This document shows positions 17,290-62,175 of a stretch of 64,000 nucleotides of DNA, piece after piece. Under the pieces are notes generated by a model. That model was not told where the DNA came from. It made no database searches and saw only the letters and a program-made list of their open reading frames with translations. The stretch covers positions 32,239,177 through 32,303,176 of the forward strand of contig OY482848.1 of the NCBI GenBank assembly GCA_960531495.1, read 5' to 3'. The stretch is from Zeus faber (taxonomy: Eukaryota > Chordata > Actinopteri > Zeiformes > Zeidae). Numbering within the stretch: the stretch's first letter is position 1; every line of letters starts with the position of its first letter. A program made the position numbers and the translations under genes.

Positions 17290-17880
17290 GCGCTCCTGGC
17301 CGTATCGCCTGCCCTAACACAAACGCAAAATTGTGCAGGCAGAATTAGATGCCATGCTGGACATGGGGGAGATAGAGGAATCTAGAAGTGAATAGTCCAG
17401 CCCAATTGTGCTTGCGGGTAAGTCCGATGGATTGGTACTGTTCTGCATTGATTTCCACAAGGTGAACGCGGTGTCAAAGTTCGATGTCTACCCGGTGCCC
17501 CATGTCAACGAGCTTCTCAACCGGTTAGGTGCGACTTGTTTTTTTACGACGCTGGATTTAACCAAGGGCTACTGGCAGATTCCCTTGTCCCAGCAGTCCA
17601 AGGATATATCAACCTTCTCCACTTCGCAAGGCCTTAACCAGTTTCAGGTGCTTCCCTTCGGGGTTGTTTTGTGCCCCCCACATGCAACATTTTCCGCTGC
17701 GTACTTAGACGATGTGATTATTCACAGTGATATGTGGGAGCGGCACCTGCAGCATGTGGGTGCGGTACTAACGTCCCTGAGGCATGCAGGGCTCACTGCC
17801 AACCCAAAGAAGTGTGCGGCTGGGCGGAGAGAGGTACAGTATCTGGGGTACTACTTGGGGGGGAGCTGCTCCGAACCCAG
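17290..17880 (+). pseudogene. Reverse transcriptase remnant of the Gmr1-like relic
   Basis: Fingers and palm are recognisable: LFCIDFHKVNAVSKFDVYP, LDLTKGYWQIPL, LPFGV and the catalytic YLDD (AYLDDVII), then a LTSLRHAGLTANPKKC thumb block. One TAG lies near 17389. After about 17880 no RNase H can be followed. Confidence 0.82.
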
Positions 17881-18249
17881 GTGGATAATATTGCTGCCGT
17901 CGCAAACACGCCGAGAACCAAGACTAATAACCGTGGTACCTGGCACTCCAACCCTTCAACTTCCGGGTGGTGCACAGGCCAGGCATCCAGATGGTTATAG
18001 CCGATTTCCTATCTGGGCGAATCCAAGTTTCAGTGAGTACCAGAACTTGGAGGGGGTGGGGAAGGCAGAAATTAAGTCGGCCTTGTTGACCGCAGGCTGG
18101 CAGTTCCACAGCCCCATGGAGAAGGGGGTGGTAGCGGCAAACGCTTCCTGAAGCTTGCACAGGTTGAGAAGGTTGCGAGTTTTCCTGGAAAAGGAATGAG
18201 ACGTGAGCTTGCAGTGATGACAGGAATATACTGAAAGCACATGGTGAAT

Positions 18250-19469: not shown

Positions 19470-19745
19470 GCACCTGTTCATCAGATCTGGGGTAATTGTA
19501 GAAGAGCTGTTTATCACCCGCAAAGCCAAGGTGTTTGTGAAAAAATGAATGGTGTGCTGAAAAATCGCATTGTTAAAATCTGTCAGCACACAGGACTGAA
19601 TTAGGTAGAGGCACTTCCGCATTAATGGTGTGTCGTTCAAGTGGGCTCCATGATTTGCACATGACCCCCCATGAGTTGGCTACGGGTAGGTGGATGCCAA
19701 CACCTTGTTTGTGGACAAGTGGAAAGGGTCCAAGCTTAGCCCTTT
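19470..19745 (+). pseudogene. ERV integrase scrap, unit 1
   Basis: AVYHPQSQGVCEKMNGVLKN is close to residues 384-403 of the minus-strand ERV frame. A TAG follows QHTGLN, then frames break before a jump to the 3' non-coding region near 19750. The same scrap is at 21711-21986. Confidence 0.85.
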
Positions 19746-20490
19746 TAGAAAAGTTTGTTTATTACAATGTAACCTGTATTATTGATGAATTCTGTACTCT
19801 ACACTAGATATTTTAAGCAAGACATATTACTTTGATTCAGTATTGTTTCTTTGAAGTTTTCTGTAACAGGGTGAAGTGAATATATTGGGTTCTCAGGTGT
19901 TTTCTTTTTTTGCGGGTTTTGAGGGACATTGGTGATAGGCAGGGAAAGGTTCACTGGAAGGTCCGATGGGTCAACCAGCCTGACTTTGGACAAAATATTT
20001 GATTAATGTCTGAGGTTCTAAATGTATGCATTGATATGTAACATCCTGTACAGTTTTCTAAACCCTTCTTCTTTGCGGTTAATTGATTTGGAGTGCAATA
20101 GGTGGTTGCCTGGGGCAGAGGGACCGTGAGAGAATTTTCCTGTCTTGATTGTTTGATGAAAGAACTAAGAAAGGAAGCTGCCAGATGGGTTTTTCGCTCT
20201 CACACTCCACAAATTTATTGTATTGCTACGACTTAGCATGGTCAGAAGGGTATATTATAATAATTTTATGTGATTTCTATTTCTGCCAATTAACGTCATA
20301 AGTTCAATTACTCTTCGCAGGCTGGCAGGCTGGCAGGCTGGCAGTTCCACAGCCCCATGGAGAAGGGGGTGGTAGCGGCAAACGCTTCCTGAAGCTTGCA
20401 CAGGTTGAGAAGGTTGCGAGTTTTCCTGGAAAAGGAATGAGACGTGAGCTTGCAGTGATGACAGGAATATACTGAAAGCACATGGTGAAT

Positions 20491-21710: not shown

Positions 21711-21986
21711 GCACCTGTTCATCAGATCTGGGGTAATTGTAGAAGAGCTGTTTATCACCCGCAAAGCCAAGGTGTTTGTGAAAAAATGAATGGTGTGCTG
21801 AAAAATCGCATTGTTAAAATCTGTCAGCACACAGGACTGAATTAGGTAGAGGCACTTCCGCATTAATGGTGTGTCGTTCAAGTGGGCTCCATGATTTGCA
21901 CATGACCCCCCATGAGTTGGCTACGGGTAGGTGGATGCCAACACCTTGTTTGTGGACAAGTGGAAAGGGTCCAAGCTTAGCCCTTT
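21711..21986 (+). pseudogene. ERV integrase scrap, unit 2
   Basis: Second copy of the 19470-19745 scrap with the same stops. Confidence 0.85.
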
Positions 21987-22596
21987 TAGAAAAGTTTGTT
22001 TATTACAATGTAACCTGTATTATTGATGAATTCTGTACTCTACACTAGATATTTTAAGCAAGACATATTACTTTGATTCAGTATTGTTTCTTTGAAGTTT
22101 TCTGTAACAGGGTGAAGTGAATATATTGGGTTCTCAGGTGTTTTCTTTTTTTGCGGGTTTTGAGGGACATTGGTGATAGGCAGGGAAAGGTTCACTGGAA
22201 GGTCCGATGGGTCAACCAGCCTGACTTTGGACAAAATATTTGATTAATGTCTGAGGTTCTAAATGTATGCATTGATATGTAACATCCTGTACAGTTTTCT
22301 AAACCCTTCTTCTTTGCGGTTAATTGATTTGGAGTGCAATAGGTGGTTGCCTGGGGCAGAGGGACCGTGAGAGAATTTTCCTGTCTTGATTGTTTGATGA
22401 AAGAACTAAGAAAGGAAGCTGCCAGATGGGTTTTTCGCTCTCACACTCCACAAATTTATTGTATTGCTACGACTTAGCATGGTCAGAAGGGTATATTATA
22501 ATAATTTTATGTGATTTCTATTTCTGCCAATTAACGTCATAAGTTCAATTACTCTTCTCTCTGTCGAGACTTTGTGTAGTCTTGAAGGGGGGAATA

Positions 22597-22942
22597 TGAA
22601 GTGTCTTGAATGGGTGGCGTCCCAAGAAAGTACCCATTGTATAAGATAATTACTAACAGACGGTGCCAGGGGTCTCAAGAGAGAGAGCCCGTTGCCAGGG
22701 GTCCCGGAGATAAGGGAGGTGGAAAGTGACCTGTGACCTATGTAGGGGAATCAGATGGACAACATTGTCTCTGGACAAGCATAAAAGCACGCTCCTTAAT
22801 TCAATCCGGCAGAGAACACTTCCGGCTTTGTTCTCTCCCGGGCGAACCATGGCATGTCTGGTCTGATGCTGTTCTTTTGTAATAAACCTATTATTTTAAT
22901 CAAGTCAGCATCAACGGTCACTCTTTCTTCATCAACACATCA
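22597..22942 (+). repeat. ERV 3' LTR, plus strand (346 bp)
   Basis: Starts TGAAGTGTCTTG right after a polypurine tract (GAAGGGGGGAA, 22584-22594). It contains a TATA-like CATAAAAGC (about 22779-22788) and a polyadenylation signal AATAAA near 22880, and ends CAACACATCA. The termini match those of the LTR at 26917-27357. Confidence 0.85.
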
Positions 22943-26662: not shown

Positions 26663-26916
26663 ATTGGATTGACCCAGTCGTCTAGCCACCACAATTTGGT
26701 ACTTGTCAAAGTTGCTCAGATCCTTATGCTTGCCAATTTTTCCTGCTTCCAACACATAAACTTTAAGAACCGACTGTTCACTTGCTGCCTGATATATCCC
26801 ACCTCTTGAAAGGTGCCATTGCAACAAGATAAGCAATGTCATTTACTTCACCTGTCACCTGATTTAATGTTGTGGCTGATCGGGCTATGTAGTGTAGTTT
26901 AGTTTCTAGATGGGTG

Positions 26917-27357
26917 TGATGTGTTGAAGAATGAAGGAGTGACCGCTGACACTGACTTGAATAAAATAATGATTTTATTACACAAATCAGCATCAAACCA
27001 GACTTGCCATGGATGTCCTGGGAGAGACCCGAGCCAGATGGAATCTCTCCCAAGTGCCGCTCTGCACTCGCTTTTAAAGCTATACAAAGATAACATACCA
27101 CATCTGGTTCCAATCCATAGGTGCCCGCTCAGCCTATATCCTGTCCTAAATGTAAACCTTTCCTCCTCTGGTCGAGCTGGAAGAAGCAACAAAATTCCTC
27201 TCCCATAGGACCTCTCAATAGACCCATTGTTGTTTTCGTTCTTCGTATGACATCGAGGCAATAAATCTAATACTAACATAGTTAATATTATGACCGCACT
27301 ATATCTCAGCTTTGGGAGCTCAGTAACCTATTCACCTCAAACCTTCCAGACACCTCA
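26917..27357 (-). repeat. 3' LTR of the minus-strand ERV (441 bp)
   Basis: In minus-strand sense it begins TGAGGTGTCTGG and ends CAACACATCA, the termini of the 22597-22942 LTR. TTTAAAAGCGAG (about 27068-27080) is a TATA candidate, and AATAAAAT near 26960-26985 supplies the poly(A) signal. The middle differs strongly from the other LTR in sequence and length. Confidence 0.82.
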
Positions 27358-27402: not shown

Positions 27403-27753
27403 TGTCAGGGTTCGCCCGGGTCCTACCAGCATCAGCCACTAGATGCCGCCAGTACTGCCTTTTCAAGGTTGCTCTGCTTCACCTATTTCTGTTCCTGATT
27501 ACCCTGCCTCATTAGATGATATGTTTCACCTGTGTCTCGTTTGGTCGTCCCTATTTAGACCCTGTCGTTTGTGTCCTCGGGCGCTCAGTCTTGAGTTTGT
27601 CTAACCTCATGACAACGCTCTTGTTCCAAGCTCCCGAGACTTCTTATTTGTTTTTGCCCAGTTTTGTACTTGTTTTGAGTAAAACCTCTATTTTTGCCAC
27701 CTCGCCTCTGCCTTGTTCTCTGCACCTGGGTTCACTCAGCATACCCCCTAACA
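27403..27753 (+). repeat. Gypsy 5' LTR
   Basis: 351 bp, TG...CA ends. Compared with the 3' LTR it has T for C in GCCAGTACTGCC and T for C in TTGTTCCAAG. Confidence 0.95.
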
Positions 27754-27771
27754 GCAAGACTGAGCCACAAC

Positions 27772-28758
27772 ATGGACCCAGCAGAGAGCCAGCCTCCAGA
27801 GGTGGAGAGCCTGCGGGTGGCCTTGACGAACCAAGGGGCTGCGATTGGCCGACACGAGCGGGTTCTCCAACAAGTCCTGGACAACCTGCAGTCGCTCGCC
27901 CAGGCCGTCCAGCAGAGCCAGGCACAGGCTCCACCTATGGCCCCTGCGCCAGCGCTGCCTCCCATGGACCCGCGTCCTCCAGAGCACCGCGAACCACGAC
28001 TGCCGGCGCCAGAGAGGTACGACGGTAACCCAGGGGGCTGTCGTGGCTTTCTGACACAATGCTCCCTGGCTTTCGAGCTCCAGCCGTCACAGTTCCCCAC
28101 CCAGCGCTCACAGGTGGCATACGTGGTCACGCTACTCACCGGCAAAGCACTCTCCTGGGCCACAGCCATCTGGAATCGGCAAACCCCGGCCTGCTCCAGC
28201 TACCAGGCTTTTGCCGGGGAGATGCGCCGAGTGTTCGACCACTCAGTCAGTGGGAGGGGGGCGTCGACACGGCTCCTCCGGCTCCGCCAGGGGGGACAGA
28301 GCGTGGCGGACTACGCCATCGCATTCCGCACCCTCGCCGTGGCGTCTGGATGGAACAGCGAGGCACTCATCGCGGCCTTCCAGGAGGGCCTCAATGAGGG
28401 GGTCAAGGACGAGCTGGCATCCCGGGAGGCGCAGGAGGACCTGGACACACTCATCGATGCAGCGATTCGGGTGGACAACCGCCTCCGGGAGAGACAAGGG
28501 GAACGCGTTTTCCCCGCTTCACCAACACCAGCGCGCAGAGCGGCTCTGGGGACGAGGCCTCCCGAGCATCTCCTGGCTATCCCGAGCGCGCCTCCAGCAT
28601 CAAGGGAGGAGCCGATGCAAGTAGGCAGCACATGGCTCTCTCGGTCCGAACGTGACCGGCGGATGAGAGAGCGCTGCTGCTTGTACTGTGGGATCCCGGG
28701 GCATTTCCGTTCTTCCTGCCCTGAGCTCTCGGGAAAAGCCAACTCTCGTCCAGGGTAG
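27772..28758 (+). CDS. gag: Gypsy Gag (capsid and nucleocapsid)
   Basis: 328 aa from [18 protein letters not shown], the first ATG after the 5' LTR; an upstream in-frame ATG at 27694 lies within the LTR. The N-terminal helix has a coiled-coil look ([14 protein letters not shown]). The middle matches the Ty3-type capsid fold region ([18 protein letters not shown]). A single zinc knuckle [14 protein letters not shown] (CX2CX4HX4C) near residues 303-316 would bind RNA. Gag forms the particle that packages the element RNA. Confidence 0.92.
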
Positions 28759-31700
28759 GGAGAACTGCGACGACGCCAACCTTCTCTCCCGAGCTCGAGG
28801 CGACCAGGGTCCTGCTGGCTGCCTCCCTCGCCTGGGGAGATCAACATCACTCCCTCCAAGCTATGGTGGATGCCGGCGCTGCAGGAAGCTTCCTGGATGT
28901 AGGGCTAGCAAAAGCCCTAAAGCTCCCTCTGGCACCTCTAGAGCACCCTCTCACGGTGACAGCCCTGGATGGAAGACCACTGGGTTCCGGTAGCGTGTGC
29001 CATCTCACCGCTCCCCTTTGGCTGTCACTGGAGGGAAAACATTCAGAGGTAATCCAGCTCCACCTCATCCACTCTCCTGAGTTTCCACTGGTCCTGGGCT
29101 ACCCATGGCTAGCCCGTCACAACCCACATCTGGACTGGGCCTCCGGGCGTCTCACCGAATGGGGCCCTGCCTGCCACACCACCTGTCTTCGTTCTAGTCC
29201 GTCTTCTCACCCTCTCGAGTCTCCAGTCCGTGTCCAAGCTCGGGCCCCTTCCCAAGCCCCTGCCCACTCCGGAGTTCCTGTCCGTGTCCTGGCTCCAGTC
29301 CGTATTCAAGGTCCCATCCATCCCGAGTTTTCACGAGTGCCCCACGAGTATGCCGATCTGAGGGAGGTCTTCAGCAAGAGACGGGCCACCACGCTTCCTC
29401 CCCATCGGTCCTATGACTGCGCCATCGACCTTCTGCCTGGCACCTGCCCTCCTCGAGGACGTCTCTTCTCTCTCTCTGCCCCTGAGACTACAGCCATGAA
29501 GGAGTACATCCGGGGGGCGCTCACCTCAGGGTTCATCCGCCCTTCTACCTCCCCGGCGGGCGCAGGCTTTTTCTTCGTGGGTAAGAAGGATGGCGGCCTG
29601 CGTCCCTGCATTGATTACCGTGGTCTGAACAAGATCACGGTCAAGAATCGCTACCCCCTTCCTCTCATGTCCACATCTTTCGAGCAACTGCAAGGCGCCA
29701 CCATCTTCACCAAACTCGATCTTCGAAACGCATACAATCTCGTCCGCGTCCGCGAGGGGGATGAGTGGAAGACCGCCTTCAACACACCTACCGGCCATTA
29801 TGAATACCTGGTCATGCCTTTTGGATTGGCCAATGCTCCCGCTGTCTTCCAGGCCTTTGTAAACGACGTCCTCCGTGAGTTTCTCAACCGCTCCGTGTTT
29901 GTCTACATCGATGACATCCTCATCTTCTCCAGGACCCTTCCCGAACACATACAGCATGTGAGACAGGTCCTTCACCGCCTGCTCGCCAATGGCCTCTATG
30001 TGAAGCTGGAGAAGAGTGAGTTCCACGCCACCACCGTTCAGTTCCTGGGGTTCGTCATCACCGAGGGTCACGTCCAGATGGATCCTGCCAAGACCGAGGC
30101 CGTCCGGGACTGGCCACCACCCACCTCGGTCAAACAGGTGCAGCGCTTCCTCGGGTTTGCCAATTTTTACAGGCGATTCATTCGGGGTTTTAGCACGGTT
30201 ACAGGTCCCCTCACCGCCCTCACTAGGACATCCACAGCCCGCTTCGCCTGGACTGCGGAGGCTGAGGGGGCGTTCAGGGCTCTCAAGATGCGGTTCACCG
30301 CTGCCCCTGTCCTGGCCACACCAGAGCCTACCCTACCCTTCGTGGTGGAGGTGGATGCTTCCGATGTGGGAGTGGGGGCCGTTTTGTCCCAAAGGACTCA
30401 CGACAGGAAGCTCCATCCATGTGCTTTCTTCTCCCGTCGCCTCACCCCAGCGGAACGGAACTATGACATAGGGAACCGGGAGCTACTGGCAGTCAAACTG
30501 GCGTTGGAGGAGTGGCGGCACTGGCTGGAGGGGGCCCAACACCCATTTGTCGTCTGGACCGACCACAAGAACCTGACATACATTCAGGAGGCCAAACGCC
30601 TCAACTCCCGTCAAGCCCGATGGGCCTTGTTCTTCAATCGGTTCAACTTCATCCTGTCGTATCGTCCCGGGTCCAAGAACCTCAAGCCCGACGCTCTCTC
30701 CAGACAGTTTCAACCTCCTGAGCTGGTTGAACTCCCCGAGCCCATTCTCCAGAGCTCCTGCATCTTGGCTCCGGTCCGCTGGGGAATCGAGACGCAGGTC
30801 CGGCAGGCCCAAAGGAGGGAGGCGGATCCCGGCAACGGGCCCCCGGGTCACCTGTTTGTCCCGAAGGCTGTCCGATCACAAGTCCTGCAATGGGGGCATT
30901 CATCCCGCCTCACTGGCCACCCGGGGATCTCCAGGACCCTCGAGTTCCTCCGCAGGCGTTTCTGGTGGCCTACCATGGAGCAGGACGTCTGGTCCTTCGT
31001 CGCTGCCTGCACCATCTGCACCCAGAACAAGAACCCCCGGTCACGTCCCATGGGGCTGCTGCATCCCCTTCCCATCCCCAGTCGGCCCTGGTCACACCTC
31101 TCAGTGGACTTCATCACCGGCCTTCCACCGTCTCGGGGCCACACTGTCATCTTTGTCGTTGTAGACCGGTTCTCCAAGGCTTGCCGTTTTATTCCTCTGC
31201 CCAAGCTCCCCTCAGCTCTGGAGACTGCTGAGCTCATGGTGCAGCACGTTTTCAGGGTGTTTGGCCTGCCCCTGGACGTGGTGTCAGACCGCGATCCGCA
31301 GTTTGCATCCCGGTTCTGGAAAGCATTCCACCAGCTCCTCGGCGCCTCCGTCAGCCTGTCCTCCGGTTTCCACCCGCAATCCAATGGCCAGACGGAGCGG
31401 GTCAACCAGGACCTGGAGACAACACTGAGGTGCCTCGTGTCCTCCAACCCTGCCTCCTGGAGCGACCATCTAGTGTGGGCGGAATACGCTCACAACACTC
31501 TGCGCTGCTCTTCCACTGGCATGTCCCCGTTTGAGTGCCAGTTCGGGTACGTACCTCCTCTGTTTCAGGAGCAGGAGGCGGAGGTGGGAGTGCCGTCAGC
31601 CCAGCGGTTCGTCCAGCGGTGCCGACGGACCTGGCAGAGTGCTCGTCAGGCCCTGCTGAGGACATCCCGGCAGCAGCAGATCCAGGCTAACCGACGGCGC

Positions 31701-32219
31701 AGACCAGCGCCTATGCTCCGTCCGGGCCAGAGGGTCTGGCTGTCCACCAGGGACCTTCCATTACGGGTGGAATCACGCAAGCTCGCGCCACGGTATGTTG
31801 GGCCCTTCAAGATCGTGCGGCGGGTCAATCCTGCCGCATACCGTCTTCTGCTCCCCAGGTCCATGAGGATAAACCCCACCTTCCACGTGTCGCGGCTCCG
31901 ACCGGTGGTCACCAGCACCTTGGCGCCCACCACGAGGCCTCCTCCGGCGCCTCGCATCATCGACGGTCAGCCCGCCTACACGGTCCGCCGGCTCCTGGAC
32001 TCCCGCCAGGTCCGCGGGGCCCTGCAATACCTGGTGGACTGGGAGGGTTACGGGCCGGAGGAGCGCTCCTGGGTTCCGGCCCGGGATATCCTGGACCCCT
32101 CCCTGATCCAGGATTTCCGCCGTCGCCACCCGACACTCCCTGGAGGAACGTCGGGAGCCGTTCCTAGACGGGGGGGTCCTGTCAGGGTTCGCCCGGGTCC
32201 TACCAGCATCAGCCACTAG
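28725..32219 (+). CDS. pol: Gypsy Pol: protease, RT, RNase H, integrase, chromodomain
   Basis: Open in the -1 frame relative to gag from 28725; from the ATG at 28863 it is 1118 aa. Protease: VDAGAAGSF, with Ala where Ser/Thr usually follows the Asp. [23 protein letters not shown] and the catalytic [10 protein letters not shown]. RNase [18 protein letters not shown]. Integrase: [10 protein letters not shown] and CTICTQNK (zinc finger), [19 protein letters not shown] and [13 protein letters not shown] (DDE). The C-terminal chromodomain ([28 protein letters not shown]) may steer integration to chromatin marks. Pol is most likely made as a Gag-Pol frameshift product. Confidence 0.95.
28731..28737 (+). 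promoter_or_regulatory. Candidate -1 ribosomal frameshift site G GGA AAA
   Basis: In the gag frame the heptamer reads G GGA AAA, an X XXY YYZ pattern, inside the 34-nt overlap of gag (to 28758) and the pol frame (from 28725). Slippage by -1 continues directly into pol. No pseudoknot was modelled. Confidence 0.65.
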
Positions 32220-32530
32220 ATGCCGCCAGCACTGCCTTTTCAAGGTTGCTCTGCTTCACCTATTTCTGTTCCTGATTACCCTGCCTCATTAGATGATATG
32301 TTTCACCTGTGTCTCGTTTGGTCGTCCCTATTTAGACCCTGTCGTTTGTGTCCTCGGGCGCTCAGTCTTGAGTTTGTCTAACCTCATGACAACGCTCTTG
32401 TCCCAAGCTCCCGAGACTTCTTATTTGTTTTTGCCCAGTTTTGTACTTGTTTTGAGTAAAACCTCTATTTTTGCCACCTCGCCTCTGCCTTGTTCTCTGC
32501 ACCTGGGTTCACTCAGCATACCCCCTAACA
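32180..32530 (+). repeat. Gypsy 3' LTR
   Basis: 351 bp, preceded by a purine-rich GACGGGGGGG tract (32169-32177) that probably serves as the polypurine tract. The pol stop codon (32217-32219) lies inside it. Confidence 0.95.
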
Positions 32531-32535
32531 AAGAG

Positions 32536-33496
32536 TAATTGAACATACGATGTTAATTGGCTTAACAGAAATCACTTAATAACAAACACAATTGGTTATA
32601 ATATACCCCTCTGACCATGCTTAGTCATAGCAATACAGAAAATTTGTGGAGTGTGAGAGCGAAAAACCCATCTGGCAGCTTCATTTCTTAGAACATCCAT
32701 CAATCAATCAAGACAGGAAAATTCTCTCACGGTCCCTCTGCCCCAGGCAACCACCTAAGGTACTCCAAATCAATTAACAGAAAAAGACGAAGGGTTTAGA
32801 CTACTGTATAGGATGTTACATATAAATGCATACATTAAGAGCCTCAGAAATAAATCAAAAAATTTGTCCAAAGTCAGGCTGGTCGACCCATCGGACCTTC
32901 CAGTGGACCTTTCCCTGCCTAGCACCAATGTCCCTCAAAAACCCGCAAAAAAAGAAAATACCTGAGGTCCCAATGTATTCACTTCATCCTACTACAGACA
33001 AAGAAGAAAAGAAAACAATAGCAAATCAAAGTAATATGTCTTGCTAAAAATATCTAGCGTAGAGTACAGGATATTCATCAATAATACAGGTTACATTGTA
33101 GTAAACAAACTCCAATATTATAAAAACATTCAGGACACACATGTATGTATTAAACTGTTGCTTTTTAACACCATCAACTTTTAATGATATTTCACTCGAC
33201 ATTCCTGATCATGATGTCTTCATTCAGGGTCCGCCGTCCATTTTCGAGTGTCCATGTTTGAATGTTCAAGTCCATTAGGCAGTTAGGATCTCTGGACACA
33301 GCCATCCTCTGACTGGTCCTGAAAGAAAGAATCACCAGCCAGTATCTTGCACAAACATCAAATACAGTATAATAATTTCACTTTTGCATTATACTTTAAC
33401 ATTATTCCAACATATGATTAACTTTTTCCTTTCCCCCCTTTGTCCATGTATTTCCCTTGTTAACAATAGTGTTGAGTAAATGATGGAATCAGATAT
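32536..33496 (-). other. ERV 3' non-coding region between env and the Gypsy insertion
   Basis: Colinear with 19750-20316 and 21990-22557 of the plus-strand ERV, sharing for example AGCTGCCAGATGGGTTTTTC on the coding sense. No frame is kept. Unusually long for a retroviral env-to-LTR gap (about 1 kb plus 45 bp past the Gypsy element). A recombination scar or lost accessory gene is possible. Confidence 0.7.
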
Positions 33497-34264
33497 TCAA
33501 AATGGGTATTTCTCTGCTAGTGTTAGCTCCTCCTTTATCACTATTTCCTCCTCATCTTCCCCGACGTCCTTACCACCCAAGAGTGGCATCTGAACACTTT
33601 CTCCCAGCATTACAACTCCTACCCATCTCAATATCATGGCCTTAGCAAAGGTCAACACCACCGTACAAAAACAAAACATCACACACAGTGATAAAAGAGC
33701 AGCTCCCATAACCTGAGCTACTATAGCTCCTAATGGTCCTAATTTGTCTTGCAGCCAGGCATTAGCTGACCACCCAGCTCCTTTTGATGGCCCAAACGCA
33801 TCCCGTATTTGTTTTAACGCATCTATGATGTTAGTCATATTGTCAGAGCCATCAGGAATCAACGTATAACAGTCATCTCCGGTTAGATTTAAAGCCACGC
33901 AAAGGCCACCTTGTTTGGCCAAAATATAATCAAGAGCCATGTCGTGTTTCATCAACGTCAATCGATGACTCCTCTGTGCGTTTGACAAATAATCAAAACC
34001 TCTTATGGTCTCATTTGCAAACCCTTGTAGAGTATACGTGATATTATCAATATGATCAGCTAAGAATGTAACCCCGTACCATGGAAACAATCCTATAGCC
34101 CATTTTTCTCCTAAAGATATCCTCCAATGATAAGACTCCAAATTGTGAAATTGTGCCAACTCTCTTTTCTTCCTACTTTTGGCAGTCTTTGCAGAATCAC
34201 CCTCATCTGTCTTTTGTCCCTTCTGAAGGACAAAAACATCATAAGGAAGTTTCAACTGTGCCAT
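33497..34264 (-). pseudogene. env: ERV env, transmembrane-subunit (TM) frame
   Basis: 255 codons from the first Met. A furin-type SRKKR site lies at residues 30-34. A GGLCVALNLTGDDCYTLIP segment (119-137) stands at the place of the gamma-type immunosuppressive/CX6CC region, but the usual adjacent cysteine pair is absent. A hydrophobic membrane anchor is at about 178-206 and an acidic cytoplasmic tail ends EKYPF. There are potential N-glycosylation sites at NIT, NET, NLT and NMT. The frame differs from that of the SU segment, with overlap at 34252-34264, so as it stands env is broken here unless the two are expressed differently. Confidence 0.85.
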
Positions 34265-34989
34265 ATAGCAACATCCAGTCCATCCATACGGCAGAAATAA
34301 GTATGCTTTATCTCCACATACCCACCAAATATCTTGAATGTTCCTATAGTCACATTACCCGGTAAAGTTTGATTCTTTACGCTCAATGTTTTACTGTGAC
34401 GACTATTTGGCGCATGAAAGGTCACTCTATAAATTTCACCAGTTGTTCTTTTTATACTTTTTCCAAATTCCATCATGTAGATTTCACATTCTGATATCCC
34501 CATAAACATACCATCTCCTTCATGAGTGTCATTAGAACAAAAGCAGTCCATACCTTTTGCAGGTGCCACTTCCATCGCTTCAGGTGTTGCTGTTCTAATA
34601 TCTTCATACTTATCAAGAAGATTTAAATATGGCAATTCTCTCAACCAGGAACACTTACGTTCAGGTCTAAATAGCTTAACCGACAGAGCCATCCATACAT
34701 CATTGGCTGCTTGTTGTCTGAATAGCAGCCACGATAATGCATTACTTTGACATTCAGACGTCAAAGGTTCCGGTACTGTCTCTAGAATTGATGGCCATGT
34801 GCCCGGAGCTGGAACTTTCACTACACACGGACAATTGGAATTAGTAGTTATTCTAACGGAGTGAGTTATCTGTTGGAACCACAGATTTCTCTTAGCCCAT
34901 GGGTCTGTTATTTGCATCGCCGAGGAATCAAACCCATATGCTTTCCACTGGGTTTCTCGCTTCTTTAAAGCATGAAGATGATCAGTCAT
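34252..34989 (-). pseudogene. env: ERV env, surface-subunit (SU)-like frame
   Basis: 245 codons, Cys-rich (for example CPCVVKV and MDCFCSND), with NDT, NQT and NVT glycosylation motifs. Its position before the furin-type site and its in-frame relation to the upstream Ig-containing frame argue for SU. I see no clear receptor-binding family match. It is separated from the upstream frame by one TGA (35011-35013) and from TM by a frame change. Confidence 0.75.
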
Positions 34990-35006
34990 GTCTTCTGATG
35001 TCCACA

Positions 35007-35040
35007 GTGGTCAATGATTTTCAAGAAAATCATTGACCAC
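35007..35040. repeat. Perfect 16-bp palindrome with 2-nt spacer at the stop codon
   Basis: GTGGTCAATGATTTTC, AA, then the exact complement. The second arm (minus sense) supplies the TGA that ends the Pol-Ig frame. Downstream the same frame is open to 34252. Confidence 0.9.
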
Positions 35041-38000
35041 TTTTGTCATCGTCATCTGAGCTTTTTCTCCTGAATTACTATCAATCTCCTCAGCAATTGG
35101 CTCTCTAATTCCAGAGCTCTCCTTGCTATTATTTAACTTAATTTCCAACTTCGCCATAGTCTTCTGGGTTATATTTATCCACTTCTCAGATGATGGGGAT
35201 GTAGCGACAGTTGTCAGTGTCTTATCTACAGACATTTTAGATACCAAAGAAGTCATCAGTGTTTTATAGGTGGTGGATCTCATCCTCACAACCTCTCTTG
35301 TATGATTACCGAGAGTTACAGAAATAGAAGTTGTCATCATCGTAGTAGTAACATCATTTTCTGCCAATGTTGGGGCTAGAGTGGTAACTGACAATGATAC
35401 GTTAATACTACTAGTTATTCCCCGAGCTAAGGAAGTAGATGTCCTCGGTCCAACAGTCACCCTTGGTGTGACTAGTTGTTTTTGGGTTTCATTAGCAATC
35501 ATGCTTACTTCTTTACTAACCAGACCTTTTACTACCAGCATTATCTTACGAGTTCTGTATCCCGCTTCCCAATAATTTTGTCTTGGGACGTATTTAAACT
35601 CTGGATCCAAATATGTGCATGTATATTCTCCTTGATCTTCCCATAGTACATTATGTACTACTAGTGAACAGTCATTTTTAACTTTAACCCCTCTCCTGTC
35701 ATTCATCAACACAAACTTTCGTTGATTGCGAGGCACACTGCTAACCTCAGGTACTGCTAGCACTATGTCTTCACCGCGTGCATTTTTCCATTTGGGGGAG
35801 ATATTTCCACCAGTATTCCATTTACTACATTTACATGGAAGGTTAGCTGTATTTCCTAATTTAGTTCTAATCACAGTATTCACTGAAATTGAAGTTGTTG
35901 GAATCATCTGAGGCACAGCAGTAGTTAACTGCAATTCCTCTGTAACATTGGTGAATTTCAAACCTAACAAGGCAGACGTCTGCTTTGTCTCTTCAGTTGG
36001 TGGGGGAGTTGATACTTCAGTTATTAATTTTCCTATTTCTTCAAAAACTGTGGGCTCTACAATTTTACTTTCATTCAAAACCACAAGAGTCACAATTTTA
36101 TATCTGTAGTCAGGCTTTCTTTGCACTCCATCCTCTCTCACAATCACAAATTTAGGATCAAAATAAGAACACTTGTAGTCTCCTTGATCTTCAATCTGGG
36201 GTCTACGTAGATAAAGACTACAGTCATCCTTCATCTTCAGCCTTCTTCGATCATTTAGCAACACATACTTCTGTAGCGGTGACGTTCCCGACAAGTCAAT
36301 TACCTTCCCATGGTTATCTTCCCACTGGACTTGAACTTCCCCTTTTTCATAATTTTCTTTGGTACACTGACATGGCAGCTGAACTGACTTTCCCAAAATC
36401 ACTTCAACTCTAGTCCTCGTATCGTTTTGGTTTAACCCTTTTTCGAGATTGTCTTGGACTCCTGGGTCCAACTGGGTTGGTACAGTTTCCTGGAGAGGTG
36501 TCACAGCCCTCTGGAGTCTTTGACAATTCATTTTCTCTGGGATTAGACTCTGTTGTGTCTGGGACATGTTGTAAATCAATGTCCCTGAAGTGTCTTTCTT
36601 GCTCAGGGACTGACAATTCATCCCTGGGATCATCAAAAGTGTGCTCATCAACATTAAGCACACCCACATCATCGCCAATCCCTTCTTCTGGGTCTGGTCC
36701 TCATGAACCTCTGGTGTTTCAGCAGCTTCTGTTGGCTCTCTTGAGCTTTCAACATTTCTGCTCAGGGATCGTGGCGCCTCTTCGTTTGGCGCTCTAACAC
36801 AATGCGATAAATGGTACCATGTAGGAGAACCTTCAACCTGAACCGCAGTTCCTGTACTGCGAACAACTTTGAATGGTCCTTCGCGGCGTTCGTTAAACCA
36901 TTTCCTCCTAAACACTTTCACGAATACCTTGTCTCCAGGTTGCACCGCGTTCCTCTTTTGCTCATCAAGTCTCTCTAGCACCTCCTCTTGTTTTTGCCTG
37001 TCAGAGACATATGTGTGTATTTTCTTATGCAGTGTTGCCATGTAGTTAACATACACTCGCATTTCATCTTCTAAAAGGGCTAAGCTTGGACCCTTTCCAC
37101 TTGTGCGCAAACATGGTGTTGGCATCCGTCTACCCGTGGCTAACTCATGGGGTGTCATGCGCAAATCACGGAGCCCACTTGAACGGCACACCATTAATGC
37201 CAACGGAAGCGCCTCTACCCAATTCAGACCTGTGTGCTGACAGATTTTAACAATGCTATTTTTCAGCACACCATTCATTTTTTCACCAACTCCTTGGCTT
37301 TGTGGATGATAAACAGCTCCTAAACGTTGTTTAATTCCCAATTTTTGCAGAATTAATTTTACTGTTCTATCCACGAACTCTTTCCCATTATCTGAGGATA
37401 TCCGATCTGGAAGTCCCCACCTGCTTATGACCTCACAACACAAGAACTTGGCAACCGACTGAGCATCTTTACGCTTGGTTGGACATGCCTCAGGCCACCG
37501 TGAAAATCTATCCACGACGACTAGCATGTATCTTTTACCTCCTATTGGTCTTATCATGTCAACAAAATCCACAACCAACTCACGCATAGGACCTGTCGGA
37601 GTTGGAATGTGACCGGGTGGACTCAACACACCCCTCCGAACGTTATTTTTAAGACAGATTGTGCATCTGCCTATGACATAATCAATTTGCTCAAGCAAGT
37701 ACGGTGCCCAAAAACCATACTCTTTCGTGATCTTTCTCCTTACCTCCCCCCTTGCAACATGGGCTAACCCATGTGCTTCCTGAATCATCAGACCTAGTAG
37801 GTCAGGGGGTGCTACCATCAGTCCTTCATGATTTCTCCACAGACCAGTAGAATCTTGTGTGGCCCCTCGGGCCAACCATAATTGTTTATCGATGGCTGAC
37901 GCCGCCTCTTGCATCGCGATCACATCTCTGAGCGTGATTTTATCTTCCAAGTCCACTTCATGAGTGACCAGAAGAACCTTGCCTGCTTTGTTTGCTCCTG

Positions 38001-38466
38001 TAACTGCTTTAGCAGCCTCATCAGCCGCTTTGTTACCTTGTGTGACCCTTGACGTGTCCATTTTGTGTGCTGCACACTTAGCTACAGCTATTTCCTTTGG
38101 TTTCATCATTGCATGCAACAATTTCATTATTTGGGCATGATGCTGTATCGGAGAACCATCGGTTTTCTTAAATCCTCGATTTTTCCACACTGATCCAAAT
38201 AAATGACACACATTATGTGCATATGCCGAATCTGTATATATTGTCACTCGCTTGCCTTCGGCCAATAGACAAGCTTCAGTCAGGCCCACAAGCTCAGCAA
38301 GCTGTGCAGAAGCAGGTTGTGGTATTACTTCTGCTTTCTCAACAACAAATTCAGTTCCCTGGGCTTTGACTACTGCATAACCAGCACTCAATGTGTCTCC
38401 TATTCGATAGCAGGACCCGTCAGTCCAATACTCCACATCTGACACATGAAGTGGGAAAGCTTGCAA
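35011..38466 (-). CDS. ERV Pol remnant fused in frame to an Ig-domain module (1151 codons)
   Basis: Counted from the first Met; the frame is open further upstream to about 38570. Residues 1-155: RNase H (WTDGS and YTDSAYAHN catalytic blocks). About 200-560: integrase with HGLAH and CTIC zinc ligands, VVDFVD, SSDNGKEF and GVGEKMNG (DDE) and a C-terminal GPFKVVR motif. About 595-619: hydrophobic signal-peptide-like stretch. About 687-796 and 863-980: two Ig V-like domains. 981-1150: Ser/Thr-rich stalk. The stop at 35011-35013 lies in a palindrome. The Ig half would normally need a spliced env mRNA; a continuous Pol-Ig frame without a stop is unusual. Confidence 0.9.
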   Translation of the reverse strand: MQAFPLHVSDVEYWTDGSCYRIGDTLSAGYAVVKAQGTEFVVEKAEVIPQPASAQLAELVGLTEACLLAEGKRVTIYTDSAYAHNVCHLFGSVWKNRGFKKTDGSPIQHHAQIMKLLHAMMKPKEIAVAKCAAHKMDTSRVTQGNKAADEAAKAVTGANKAGKVLLVTHEVDLEDKITLRDVIAMQEAASAIDKQLWLARGATQDSTGLWRNHEGLMVAPPDLLGLMIQEAHGLAHVARGEVRRKITKEYGFWAPYLLEQIDYVIGRCTICLKNNVRRGVLSPPGHIPTPTGPMRELVVDFVDMIRPIGGKRYMLVVVDRFSRWPEACPTKRKDAQSVAKFLCCEVISRWGLPDRISSDNGKEFVDRTVKLILQKLGIKQRLGAVYHPQSQGVGEKMNGVLKNSIVKICQHTGLNWVEALPLALMVCRSSGLRDLRMTPHELATGRRMPTPCLRTSGKGPSLALLEDEMRVYVNYMATLHKKIHTYVSDRQKQEEVLERLDEQKRNAVQPGDKVFVKVFRRKWFNERREGPFKVVRSTGTAVQVEGSPTWYHLSHCVRAPNEEAPRSLSRNVESSREPTEAAETPEVHEDQTQKKGLAMMWVCLMLMSTLLMIPGMNCQSLSKKDTSGTLIYNMSQTQQSLIPEKMNCQRLQRAVTPLQETVPTQLDPGVQDNLEKGLNQNDTRTRVEVILGKSVQLPCQCTKENYEKGEVQVQWEDNHGKVIDLSGTSPLQKYVLLNDRRRLKMKDDCSLYLRRPQIEDQGDYKCSYFDPKFVIVREDGVQRKPDYRYKIVTLVVLNESKIVEPTVFEEIGKLITEVSTPPPTEETKQTSALLGLKFTNVTEELQLTTAVPQMIPTTSISVNTVIRTKLGNTANLPCKCSKWNTGGNISPKWKNARGEDIVLAVPEVSSVPRNQRKFVLMNDRRGVKVKNDCSLVVHNVLWEDQGEYTCTYLDPEFKYVPRQNYWEAGYRTRKIMLVVKGLVSKEVSMIANETQKQLVTPRVTVGPRTSTSLARGITSSINVSLSVTTLAPTLAENDVTTTMMTTSISVTLGNHTREVVRMRSTTYKTLMTSLVSKMSVDKTLTTVATSPSSEKWINITQKTMAKLEIKLNNSKESSGIREPIAEEIDSNSGEKAQMTMTKVVNDFLENH
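35014..35526 (-). other. Ser/Thr-rich stalk after the ERV Ig domains
   Basis: About 170 residues with roughly a third Ser/Thr, several NxS/T motifs (NET, NVS, NHT, NIT) and few aromatic residues, suggesting a mucin-like spacer between the Ig domains and the SU-like part. Confidence 0.7.
35527..36672 (-). other. Signal peptide plus two V-type Ig-like domains in the ERV
   Basis: From Met599 a hydrophobic MMWVCLMLMSTLLMIPG segment looks like a signal peptide. Ig1 (residues about 687-796) has LPCQC, VQWED and EDQGDYKCSYFDP. Ig2 (863-980) has LPCKC, PKWKN and EDQGEYTCTYLDP. Both share LLNDRR/LMNDRR and DDCSL/NDCSL blocks, so one probably arose from the other by duplication. The Cys...Trp...DxGxYxC pattern is the V-set hallmark, and the extra CxC at the first cysteine recalls CD300/pIgR-like V domains. 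Capture from a host immune-type receptor is an inference. Confidence 0.8.
36787..38466 (-). pseudogene. pol: ERV RNase H and integrase portion of pol
   Basis: First 560 residues of the long frame. All DDE integrase residues are present (Asp300, Asp359, Glu395). RNase H keeps Asp16 and Asp79. Reverse transcriptase, which should precede it, is missing because the element is truncated at about 38570. Confidence 0.9.
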
Positions 38467-38570
38467 GTCTGATCTGAGCTTTGCATATCTCTCTACTTCC
38501 TGAATACAATCATGTGGCTCTCCATTCCCTGGTGTTGGTAAATTATCAGCTGGATTTACCGTGGCGCACC

Positions 38571-39073
38571 TTACCTACTGTACTGTATGTAGCATACTGT
38601 ACCGCATACTGTATCACTGTTCAGGGTTGTTCGTGATGCCGTATTGCTGCGCCGTACTGTTGTATACTGTGCTGTATTATCCCAAACACTACCTCACACT
38701 ATTCACATTCACATGCCACTTTAATTCACATGCCACTTTAAATGCACATATCTGTATATACATAGCCATATTCCTTCTACCTATTCCATTTTATTTCAAT
38801 TTATTTTTATTGTATTTTATTCTATATATTTTTTATCTTATTCTATAAGTATTCCACTTACTGTATTACGTTTTAGGAGTCAGTTAGTCGGTCTATTAGA
38901 AAGGAATTTTCTACTTTTTATTTTATTTTATTTTTGTACTTTTTCCTAGGACTTATTGTGTGCTATCACCGGGTGCGTTGCATTACATTTCACTGCATAT
39001 ATGTATGGAAGTATGTATATGTATGTGACAAATAAAAATCTTGAATCTTGAATCTTGAATCTTGAATCTTGAA
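38571..39073 (+). mobile_element. LINE 3' UTR fragment with TTGAATC tail
   Basis: Closely matches the complement of 62176-62660, the 3' UTR of the LINE at the right edge. It ends with TGACAAATAAAAATCTTGAA and four TCTTGAA repeats. A 5'-truncated insertion that marks the break of the ERV pol. Confidence 0.9.
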
Positions 39074-49439: not shown

Positions 49440-50195
49440 TTACCTCCGCCCTATCTCGCTCTGCCGGAGGAACTGGATGTTGTTGGCGCTGTCGGCAAGC
49501 TCGGGGTACTGCTCCACAGACAGCACGTAGTAGCCGTCATAGCCCAGCACCTTCCCGCCACTCAGCAGTTGCCTCTTCTCCCCTTCCGTCCACGGCCGGG
49601 CACCCTCCTCGCCATCCCGCACCCGCTGCTGCTCGCGGGCCCACGCCCTGCCCAGCGCTCGCTGCCGTGCCTGCTCCAGGACCCGCGCCTTCTCCTCGTC
49701 CAGTGTCATGCCATAGCGCACGTGCAGTGCCAGTGCGCCGTGCTGCAGCTCCACGTCGGCAAAGCGGCGAGTGCGGCCATTAACCACGGTGGTGGACTGT
49801 GACACGGTGACGTTGACGCCATTCTCCAGTGCCCGGCGGCCTGAGGTGAGGCGCAATGCAGCCAGATCGCTCTCCGGGAGGCTGGTCTTGATGAAGTAGT
49901 GTGTGTCGCGGCCCTCCACTGTGAAGTGCAGCTCTTCCAGGTAGAAGGCGTTGTTCAGCACTGCCGCGGCCTTGATGCAGTCCTCGTTGGCCACGTTGAG
50001 GGCATGCGTAACCACGCGGCCCTGCGTCACTGCCAGCATCACGCCCTTGCCCACCAGCGACCTGGCGGCGGCGAACCAGAGCCATGGCTTGGCTCGCTCT
50101 GAGCGCCTCCGACCTAGCTGGATCTCTGGCATGCGCTCAAACGACAGGAAGGCGCCGGACTTGCGGGTCACTTCCTGTTGCACACCCGAAATGGA
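49440..50195 (-). CDS. tenm3: Teneurin last exon: Tox-GHH-like lobe and TCAP
   Basis: 252 codons, [20 protein letters not shown] through [10 protein letters not shown] and TAA. It contains [20 protein letters not shown] and an Arg-rich helix ([19 protein letters not shown]). A GC-rich exon. Confidence 0.96.
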
Positions 50196-50471
50196 CTAGC
50201 GGAGAGAGAGAGAGAGAGAGAGCATGACATTTCTACAATCTGTCGCAACCATGCCCAAAACCCTTCCTGTACGCCCCCATTATGACAAATTACAATAGGG
50301 ATTACAGGACTAACACCAATTTAATAATACTAATTCACTTTTAATATTGATATGAATAATAATAACAATAATAATAACATTGAATAATAACAATAATGAC
50401 AACAATAAAATAAAAGAGATCAGCAGACCTGACCATTTTTTAATTTTAATTTTACAAGAAATTATATATGT

Positions 50472-50507
<36 letters not shown>

Positions 50508-53500
50508 ATTTTTTTTTCTTGCAATGAGTGGGAAACAGAACATGTGTGGGAGAAGGAACACAACCCGGGAGAAAGGTCTTTGCTGTGCTCCGCCACACCC
50601 TTGCGCAAATTTACCACTAATGAGATGATATGTCCAGCCACACAAGAAAAAAAACAGACCCCTACAAAACAAGGTTGTCATTTGCTTTACCCCCCCCACC
50701 CCACACACACACACACAGACAGAAATAATTGTCAGAGGACGTTTTGTTTTGTTCACTAAAGAAACCAACTCAGACATTATGCTCAACGCAAAGATGTGAG
50801 CATTTCTGTGTGTATATACAGTATATAGATAAACTTGAAAAGTACCATTTAAGAAAGGTGCTTTAAAAATTGAAGCGCTAAAAGCAGTATACTACTGTAT
50901 ATAGATATCTATACATCTATATATATTTATAGATATCTATATGTATATGCATTAAGGCAAAAAAATCCCACCAGATTGGGCGTAGGGATATGGTGTATGG
51001 ATACGTACGGGCAGGTCATCCCACAATTGGCTCTTCTTCATCTCCAGCGAGGGCTGCGTCAAGTCGAACTTGGGGATGGGGAATCCTGGAATAGCATTGT
51101 GAAGGTGGAACCCGAAGGTGACCAACCAGATGTTGACATCTAGAAAGACGGAGGCAACCATGTCAAATCTGGCTGGTGATATGGCGTTTTAAACAAGGAA
51201 TTAAGGGATTCCTTCAGGTTGGCATACCCAGTGAATTCGTGTGTGAGAAAATTCTGTAACAATTTTATTTAAAATTACTTGCATTTTTTTTAACTTAAAG
51301 TTACAGCTGGACTAATTTTTGCAATGCAGTTAGCCACGGCCACCTAAAAATCAGACATTGTCCTTGAACAAGCACGCGAAAAATGTAAACACAGTGTATA
51401 ACTAAGAGATGGTTCCGCACCGTTGCACTTTCCTTCAGCTGTCTGTCTTTTAGAAAAAGACAGTGTGTTTTTATTTTATACTGTTAAAGCTAGAGTGTGC
51501 ATCTTGCACAAGCACGGTACTTCACCATCCTAAACTGCTGTAAAACTAAAACTGACTGACTTGCCGACTGGCAGTCAGTGAGACTATGTTTACCCTGCGT
51601 GACGACACCGGTTGATGAAAAAAATATATAATTTTTTACGTGCAAACTTAAAACACCTACATTTTTCCTGTATTTTTGCCCTTGTCACCTGTAAAAAAGT
51701 TTATTTTTGTTTCAAACTATTTTCTCCATAAGCCCAAAATTACAAATTCATAAAAAAAATGTAACCTGATAGTTGCTATTTTTGAGTGAGTGTGATTATG
51801 ATTTGACATCCTTTTTTCCCCCATTGTTTCATATGTTCACGTTCTGTTTTTTCTCCATTTTTATTCATATTTCCTGTAAAGCACATTCAATCTGAGATAA
51901 AGTTTGCCTTGCTTTATCTAAACAATCATCACCATTGTCATGCAGCGCTGTTGTTTCTCCTGTTACAATTATTTGTTAATCGTAGAGGTCGTACCTGTGA
52001 CATACTCCTTCACCTGGTGGACCTTGCTGACTGGGTTGTTGTTACGAAACATGTACAGGTTGAAGGGCTGCGGCTCTTTGCCCACCCGAGTCCACGTGCC
52101 AATGTCTGGGGTGGTCCACCTGTACAGCAACAAGCGCTCCGGTTAGAGTTGTGGATGATCAGTACTTCACAGACTTGATCATGTAAGGACATCCTCATTA
52201 TTTGCTGTCCACCACAAAGTTAACCCCCGGTCAATTTTAGAAACACTTATTTTACTTGAGAGTATTTCTAAATAAATGAATGTGGCATAGCTTGCAGAGT
52301 TTTTTCTGTCAGACAACTCGACACGCCACGCGATTCCACACCCTTATGGGCCGGCCTATTCAAGCAGCCAATCCCTCCTGCCCTACCTGCTTTGCTTCCT
52401 GCTTTACTACATTCTTACTTGCTGCATTGCTGCACTCCCTCCACCTCCCCTGCATTCACCTGTTGGCCTCTTCTCTTCTATCAAGTGGCTAGATTAAAGC
52501 TCATCACTCAATGTAAACAATGTAAATAAATAAAGATTTTATTTTTTATAAATCAAAGCTGTCTTGTCATGTGTTTTTATATCAAATGTATGTATTCTCA
52601 GTCATTTATTTGTCTCTTGTTGTTGTGACTTCCAAAATGCTTCCAAAATCTCTTCTTCCTCTATGTGGTTTGAACACAAACACGAATAAGCGAGAATTTA
52701 CTGAATGTAGCTCGGAGTAACTATTTGTCTCGATACATTCTCACTGCTACTCAAGTGGTAAATTGGAACTACTTTTACTTCAGTATCATATTTGAGCAGC
52801 TCTCCCCAACTCTGTTGGAATGTATTTTCATTTTCAAGATAAGATGGGTTGAATACAGAGGATGTGGCACCACAGGAATGTTTTTTTCATCCACCAAAAA
52901 AAATCTTGAATAGACCCAGCAGTGTGTGAAGGAGCATTGCCATGGCACTGAAGCCGACGACCATTTTTACCTCACAACGAGAGGGGAAAAAAAAGTTGAA
53001 TCAAAACCTCTTTATAAAAAATGCACGACTTGATTTTCGAATGTGAGGCACATGTTCCTGTTAAACAATACCTCACTGAGAAATAATTTTTTGATGAGAA
53101 TTTTGTATATCTCCGCAGAACTGAGCTGCTCCTTAAGCAGTGTGACAAGCTGTGTAGAGCCCAATCTCACACTCTGCTGTAACTTCACCTGCTCCCCCAC
53201 ATCGCCGAATGAATAGCTGCAGGATGACACACTAGGACATGAGTTAAAGGTCAAATAAATTAAAATCATGAAATGCTCATTCAATCAGATTTGATTGTAA
53301 GGATGCACGAATGTCCATACATCTGTTTTTCTGACCTGAATTTGTTGAAGGCATGTTTAAGTAGACATGGTTTCTTACTTAAAATGTCTTATTCTTTATG
53401 CAAAATCAATTAGACGAGTGTCAAGAATCATATTAACATCAAAATGATTCAGGAGGCCCTAATAGGCTATTGATTATAACTATCTTAATGAAACTTGTTC

Positions 53501-54750
53501 AAAGTGATAAATTATGATATATGGATGATTTAAGAGGGTGCAGTCACTTTGTCGGCTCTTTTTCTCAAGGTTTCCCTTGAAGTGTGGCCTTTTACTAAAG
53601 GTTTGCCTATATTGCACTGCTGCCTCACAGCAAGAAGGTCGTGGGTTCGATTCCCGCCTGGGGCCCTGTTGGCACCGTGCTCCGGCGGGTTATCTCCTAA
53701 ATAGGAGCCTTTCTGTGTGGAGTTTGCATGTTCTCCCCGTGCTCACATGGGGTTTCCTCCACCTACCATCAGTAAGGACCCCCACCAAAAACATGCACCC
53801 ATCATCGTTTGACCAGCGATGGACACTCGTTACCGGGCGGGTCGACGAATGCTTCCCACTGCTCCTGGCTGCCCCCCCGGAGGAAGGACAAGCCAGGATG
53901 GGTCAAATGCAGAGGCCTCATTTCACCGGCCACCATCCAAAGCATGTGCATGTGTGTGTGTGTATGCATGTGTTATGGTGTGGTGCTTGACAATTAAAGA
54001 TTCTGCTTCTTCTTCTTCTTCTTCATTTAAGCACAGTGAGAAGCTGCAGCAGAGCACTTAGTTACTCAGTTGTAAAGTGTTCAGCAACGTTGTCCTATGA
54101 ACAGTTATAAACGATGGAAACCAACATTTCAAGAAGGCCTGGGTTGAAAAGTAGAGAGAAGTCCTTTAATAATATACGTGCTATAAACACTTGTATTACA
54201 TTGTACATACTATCAATACAGTATAATAAATTATCAATATTTGTAGTTTATACCCTATAGACCCATAACAGTAATTTATCCTGTGCATAGTGTCATATTT
54301 TGTTTATTTTTCTATATCTGTTTTGTATTTTCATTATTTCATTATTCTCAATTTCAGACAGTTTTAAATGCTAATCGTCTTCAGCAAATGCACCAAAACT
54401 CACCATTTCCTAGTATGTAAATGTACCTGGCGGAGTAAACCGGTTCTGATTCCAGTGAAGTGACTAAAATCAACAAGTTTAAATCAGTATGCGATTTTGT
54501 TAAGCAAAGTGCAATCTCCAGTAAAATGACGGATGTGTGGATGTGTGAATGATGAACTAAATCACTGCAGGATGGGCATCAGCGTGAGGTGAAGTGAACT
54601 GGGTTACCTCCCAGCGGGAATGTCGTAATCCCGGTCTCCAAAATGCAGCAGCCGGGTCAGTGGGTCGTACAGGCCTCCATGGAAACCGATCACCAGCACA
54701 AAGTCTGGGTTTGAATCAAAGTACACTTCACCATAAGCGGTGTATTGCAC

Positions 54751-54816
<66 letters not shown>

Positions 54817-61837: not shown

Positions 61838-62175
61838 AGTTGCTACATTTGGGACACTAGCCTTGTATGTGTTTGCCAAGTTTAGTTATTTAGAGAGAGA
61901 GAAAGGCAGGGAAGCGAAATTAACCTCCATGAGTAGCTTTTGATCTCGGCTAATGGAGCACAAAGCAGGTATTAGCATCTACTGGCCCTGTTTAATTAAG
62001 TTCCCCTTGACCTCTCAGCCAGATCTAATGGCAGAGAGGGCATCTGTGTGGGAAGATTCTAGTGTCTGCGTGCCCGGTGTATTGGTGAGAGCATGAGAGA
62101 GAAAGAGAAGACAGATGAGAAAGAAAGATGGCTAATATCAATCTGAGCTGCTGTAGAGGGATTTAATCGCAACAA
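61838..62175. other. Teneurin intron, nothing recognised
   Basis: Short host spacer between the hAT element and the LINE. Confidence 0.5.

Follow-up and report, generated by a model that had tools for sequence, protein, structure and literature searches.

The window analyzed here, a stretch of 64,000 nucleotides from the genome of Zeus faber (contig OY482848.1, positions 32,239,177 to 32,303,176), carries on its minus strand a damaged copy of an endogenous retrovirus (ERV) in which two immunoglobulin (Ig) domains accompany the envelope gene (env). Minus-strand positions 35011 to 36672 encode a tandem of V-set Ig domains, preceded by a putative signal peptide and followed by a stalk rich in Ser and Thr. 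A single open frame (38574 to 35011, minus strand) reaches this Ig module after RNase H, the core of integrase and an integrase C-terminal domain of the MLV type. Further downstream lie the surface (SU) and transmembrane (TM) subunits of Env and the long terminal repeat (LTR), giving the following features.

36673..38574, minus strand: pol remnant with RNase H, integrase core and MLV-type integrase C-terminal domain (Pfam RNase_H 1.8e-21, rve 2.8e-19, MLVIN_C 2.6e-8)
36413..36700, minus strand: pol C-terminal tail in another frame, overlapping the start of env (96-amino-acid frame ending ...KRVKPKRYED)
36610..36672, minus strand: putative Env signal peptide (Met at 36672 and hydrophobic stretch, position inferred from copy L005)
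36412..36609, minus strand: linker from signal peptide to Ig1, without a Pfam match
36040..36411, minus strand: Ig1, V-set domain (Pfam V-set 33.0 bits, E 7.5e-8)
35896..36039, minus strand: Ser/Thr-containing linker from Ig1 to Ig2, from the sequence
35521..35895, minus strand: Ig2, V-set domain (Pfam V-set 33.8 bits, E 4.1e-8)
35014..35520, minus strand: Ser/Thr-rich stalk, without a Pfam match
34255..35010, minus strand: SU core, separated from the Ig module by a stop in the window copy but continuous with it in L002, L005 and L006; without a Pfam match
33500..34354, minus strand: end of SU, furin-type site RKKR and TM with membrane anchor, in a different frame in the window copy (structure matches)
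32531..33499, minus strand: ERV 3' untranslated region, split by a Ty3/Gypsy insertion (97.5 to 98.5% identity to the equivalent region in four other copies)
26893..27357, minus strand: ERV 3' LTR, the LTR of the family (96% identity to the 5'-side LTR in L017)

The initial annotation reported a tandem of V-like domains from the sequence alone, and this tandem is real: both domains exceed the Pfam V-set cutoff of 26 bits, and module DNA was matched at no fewer than 39 places besides the window, at 97 to 100% identity (40 of 191 candidates scored). The residues assigned to the two domains, 687-796 and 863-980, coincide with Ig1 and Ig2 if numbering begins at the TTG start codon of the 1151-amino-acid frame. 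Ig1 and Ig2 are 38% identical to each other. Across 17 aligned ERV Ig domains, the Cys pair of strands B and F, the core Trp and the D-x-G-x-Y-x-C motif are invariant or nearly so. Besides this pair, Ig1 and Ig2 share two further Cys (a C-x-C and one ahead of strand E). Matches to solved structures are scattered across many Ig-family proteins: a PDB search with the 17-domain profile returned otk (4.8e-8) and JAML (5.8e-8), then VEGFR2, contactin, CD4 and CD8 alpha, while single-sequence searches returned FGFR3, butyrophilin 3A2 and CD4 at 0.003 to 0.005. Neither the Ig domains nor the last 500 residues of the L005 Env had a match in NCBIfam.

The window copy is broken, with the Ig module in frame with pol, a stop before SU and TM in yet another frame. 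Copies L002, L005 and L006 instead have one open frame, signal peptide-Ig1-Ig2-stalk-SU-TM, as far as the retrieved sequence extends. In L002, L003, L005 and L006, pol terminates in another frame, 260 bases into env, and this in-frame pol end is the counterpart of the 96-amino-acid tail frame of the window copy. Besides the window, at least 16 of 142 rows hold an unbroken env frame (14 of 1088 codons, one of 1085 and one of 1073); these rows derive from 132 of 311 candidates, several being pieces of one copy. The Ig module is the N-terminal part of env and not of pol. The proposed position of the module on the N-terminal side of Env therefore stands, but the in-frame fusion of integrase and Ig domains is peculiar to the broken copy. 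A 45-base imperfect inverted repeat (34997-35041) lies at the end of the env frame of that copy.

The remainder of this Env resembles a fusion glycoprotein. RKKR precedes TM in the window copy, L002, L003 and L006, and L005 differs at that site. TM matches the GP2 ectodomain 4n21 (E 7.6e-6) and Syncytin-2 7oix (E 4.1e-5), and in L005 an immunosuppressive-domain-like stretch precedes the first TM Cys. Neither of the gamma-type Cys motifs, CXXC in SU and CX6CC in TM, is present in the L005 Env. A C-X9-C motif occurs in TM in 13 of 14 rows, the remaining row being frameshifted. The stalk of L005 has 51 Ser or Thr among 169 residues and no Cys.

The order of these parts is conserved among diverged copies. 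Among 40 diverged pieces, 38 have integrase or the signal peptide upstream of the module and 37 have stalk, SU or TM downstream, with both in 35, so that separate proviral copies share the order, a point that the initial annotation had proposed to check. The Cys and Trp landmarks are retained in most diverged copies, the disulfide Cys in 25 to 27 of 27 copies for Ig1 and in 34 to 37 of 36 to 37 for Ig2. These observations bear on the objection that the window shows a misassembly, or a host Ig exon that happens to lie between integrase and env at the locus. The window copy is itself broken and has another element within its 3' end, which would fit such an accident, but the recurrence of module DNA elsewhere, the shared order and the unbroken env frames leave this explanation a negligible probability. 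A host exon at the locus, which had been named as the refuting alternative, does not explain the module, because the module moves with LTR-flanked copies.

The family LTR is 464 bp long. The LTR pairs of six proviruses differ by 1, 0, 1, 2, 3 and 0 mismatches over this length (one pair has an additional gap column); an exact 4-bp target duplication flanks five of the six, and four span 14.6 to 14.8 kb, the other two being longer. Gag has a zinc knuckle, protease and reverse transcriptase (RT) are recognized, and gag and pol share a frame with an intervening stop (L071 and L018). The best PDB matches of RT (5.1e-64) belong to a group that we take to be MLV/XMRV-type, followed by a presumably foamy-type group at 3e-32; the window copy also carries the MLVIN_C integrase domain. 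The near-identical LTR pairs, the gag-stop-pol arrangement and the MLV-nearest RT indicate a class I (gamma/epsilon-like) ERV family, some of whose insertions are very recent. No relative turned up in viral contigs scanned with either the Ig module or TM.

Some members of the family have unusual structures. In the L071 pol piece, about 200 residues (115-320) between the protease and RT matches belong to no Pfam family, and L072 (G000:C4:35395900-35399900) has an unusually long leader of ∼3 kb from the 5' LTR to gag with no frame of >190 amino acids. Four LTR pairs with near-identical LTRs lie only ∼9.9 to 10.1 kb apart (L073 at G000:C15:1834000-1838500, the others on C56, C12 and C21). These may be internally deleted, env-less forms that are still spreading, since L073 lacks ∼1 kb of gag and no Ig match falls between the LTRs among the matches listed.

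Selection on the module was assessed from the net ratio of nonsynonymous to synonymous divergence (dN/dS), i.e., divergence between old and young copies minus divergence within groups. Seven intermediate and five single-Ig copies were omitted, as were rows locally off frame (L032 and L035 for Ig1; L033, L042 and L046 for Ig2; L029 and L056 for the stalk), and TM was omitted for lack of old rows. Net dN/dS was 0.24 for Ig1 (90% bootstrap limits, 0.13 to 0.52), 0.39 for Ig2 (0.21 to 0.89) and 0.38 for SU (0.24 to 0.52), compared to 0.74 for the stalk (0.51 to 1.22) and 0.83 for the signal peptide and linker (0.41 to 2.58). During viral replication, constraint on the Ig domains was therefore similar to that on SU and stronger than that on the stalk, and the domains were under purifying selection between the old and young waves. 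Within the old group, dN/dS was 0.59 for Ig1 and 0.67 for Ig2; the old group is therefore not in purely neutral decay. In pairwise tests, dN was below dS in >95% of bootstraps in 16 of 17 copies for Ig1, 6 of 6 for SU and 5 of 5 for TM, and in 6 of 17 for the stalk and 0 of 13 for the signal peptide and linker.

These values bear on two further explanations. The module could be a functionless passenger that was acquired accidentally and multiplied with the virus. Broken copies are frequent and single-Ig variants exist, both of which fit a passenger, but the upper bootstrap limits of <1 for both Ig domains and the retention of the domain landmarks had already weakened this explanation, and we consider it very improbable. 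Alternatively, module and glycosylated stalk could act mainly as a spacer that hides the conserved fusion machinery from antibodies, with no specific ligand. The 17 N-glycosylation motifs of L005 and its Ser/Thr-rich stalk would suit a shield; a spacer needs no strong constraint, yet Ig1 is far more constrained than the stalk, and shielding as the main role is improbable.

Five pieces (L038, L039, L050, L051 and L052) encode a single Ig domain. Its body matches Ig2 (73 to 79 of 100 to 102 positions) and its strand A matches Ig1 (10 to 13 of 16). In the domain tree, support is 94 for the grouping of the single-Ig bodies with Ig2 and 71 for their grouping with one another. With an Ig1-like strand A on a body that groups with Ig2, collapse of a tandem is a simpler explanation than a single-Ig ancestor, and the single-Ig variant looks derived from the tandem. 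A tree of stalk-SU DNA, which took in 38 of 48 pieces, argues against a single origin of this form: it splits the single-Ig copies between two positions of weak support, one of which also includes a tandem copy, so that one or more collapses are possible.

A donor for the module was sought among host V-set sequences. The genome search scored 150 of 847 candidates, from which 40 host pieces were picked, a small sample chosen by Pfam score. Kinship with CD300/pIgR receptors, as initially suggested, is not singled out by the comparison. The host piece scoring highest against the ERV Ig profile, L082, is read as CD300-like, but its 18.9 bits are nearly equaled by L083 (18.7 bits), and by blastp Ig1 is closer to L083 (E 4.9e-8) than to L082 (E 0.001). 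Members of the CD300/pIgR family have a second Cys pair in the C-C' region. Such a pair follows strand B in host exon L082 and was not found in Ig1 or Ig2, which have C-x-C and the Cys before strand E instead. A host cluster on C2 near 47.5 Mb (L093) was considered as donor for its four-Cys pattern, recognized by eye, yet rejected, as it reached only 14.6 bits; L093 sits within Ig1 in the domain tree with a support of 39, in what looks like a long-branch artifact. No host donor is claimed.

We propose, with a probability of about 0.5, that this class I ERV family possesses an extended gamma-like fusion glycoprotein whose N-terminal tandem V-set module serves as an attachment part; the module lies in the env reading frame and is found in young and old copies alike. 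The cDNA of a host V-set protein would have been joined into env by recombination during reverse transcription, capture from mRNA being inferred because no intron separates the Ig domains. A mucin-like stalk would then hold the module at the greatest distance from the viral membrane. There it could bind a surface ligand of the target cell, from the Ig family or another, and so draw the virus close to the cell ahead of fusion driven by SU and TM. Judged from sequence, the module is most likely the membrane-distal attachment part of SU, acting most likely as a second attachment site or as a substitute for the usual receptor-binding domain.

Several observations weigh against this proposal. No confident fold model was obtained: the predicted local distance difference test (pLDDT) score was 30.6 for the window module alone and 45.2 for Ig1 with Ig2 as the sole other row, and among the 50 matches listed by a Foldseek search with the latter model, mostly Ig domains with low template modeling scores, none reached an E of ≤0.001, an outcome taken as no argument for or against an Ig fold. 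No close donor was found among the 40 host pieces. For Ig2, only 17 of 27 copies passed the pairwise test with dN below dS in >95% of bootstraps. Many copies are broken, and the existence of the single-Ig variant means that the tandem is not indispensable.

The strongest competitor concerns immune evasion rather than entry. The module might mimic a host immune receptor on virions, infected cells or shed SU and soak up or trigger host ligands. Ig decoys occur in other virus families, the predicted V-set fold, stalk and signal peptide resemble those of leukocyte receptors, and the module is located outside the SU core and TM. On the other hand, no close counterpart appeared in the small sample of host pieces, and the module is built into the fusion protein rather than encoded by a separate accessory gene. 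This integration into the fusion protein makes attachment the preferred reading, and a decoy appears unlikely, though far from negligible. Retention of the module through repeated spread suggests that the virus used the Ig domains either for attaching to cells or for misleading the host.

A stronger version of the attachment proposal is tentative and rather doubtful. It would have a captured tandem V-set receptor lastingly fused to a fusion machine that lacks both gamma-type intersubunit Cys motifs, with the module having taken over receptor recognition and entry proceeding via the ligand of a host immune-type receptor.

A feline leukemia virus with a transduced T-cell receptor gene provides an Ig-superfamily gene in a retrovirus, reportedly by acute transduction and not as a stable part of Env in a multiplying lineage. 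Among the open-licence literature searched, the nearest published case is CrocERV31, which captured host mRNA for nectin-3 (three Ig-like domains) and multiplied under purifying selection (Chong et al. 2014, PMC4299795). As here, a captured host Ig-superfamily sequence spread within an ERV family under purifying selection, but nectin-3 replaced env in CrocERV31, which belongs to another ERV class, whereas the Ig domains of the Z. faber ERV are fused in frame to a retained SU-TM. In CrocERV29, a captured KIT-ligand likewise lies near the pol-env junction with viral genes retained, but it is not an Ig domain and occupies a separate frame between pol and env (PMC4299795). Compared to gamma-type Env as outlined in the accessible sections of a review (PMC9967133), the Z. 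faber Env shares the furin-type site, the immunosuppressive-domain-like stretch and a Syncytin-2/GP2-related TM but differs in its N-terminal tandem Ig, in the absence of CXXC and CX6CC from L005 and in its C-X9-C motif. Those sections mention no Ig domain within an Env (PMC9967133), nor do the accessible sections of a zebrafish ERV survey (PMC8672886). Among the matches listed from open-licence full texts, there was no retrovirus whose Env contains Ig domains. The claim that no described retrovirus has an N-terminal tandem Ig module holds within that literature but needs to be qualified by the Ig-gene precedent of CrocERV31 (PMC4299795).

Retroviral gene capture is known but usually costs a viral gene; here, the Ig module is built into Env, selection has preserved it across two waves of spread, and near-identical recent copies still have it. 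The family makes the gain of new recognition domains by retroviral Envs directly testable, since donor, ligand and one-Ig intermediate can be looked for within a single genome.

The surroundings of the window copy are rich in other elements. The ERV is probably truncated near 38571, at the start of another repeat (match to 62173-62653). Its 3' region is split by a Ty3/Gypsy chromovirus (27403-32530) with a chromodomain, an 1118-amino-acid pol frame, LTRs of 351 bp that are 99.4% alike and a 5-bp duplication, AAGAG. Two fragments in the opposite orientation to the ERV (19504-20316 and 21745-22610) have a piece of pol that directly abuts the 3' untranslated region of the ERV (88 to 91% identity) and are read as older, env-less derivatives. 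Frames with RT domains of other retroelements lie at 17408-18148 and 62676-63965, the second with an ALKBH8_N match. Exons of a teneurin gene (Teneurin_ABD, Tox-GHH and YD-shell) occupy 49443-57098 on the minus strand, and the ERV lies beyond the 3' end of this gene.
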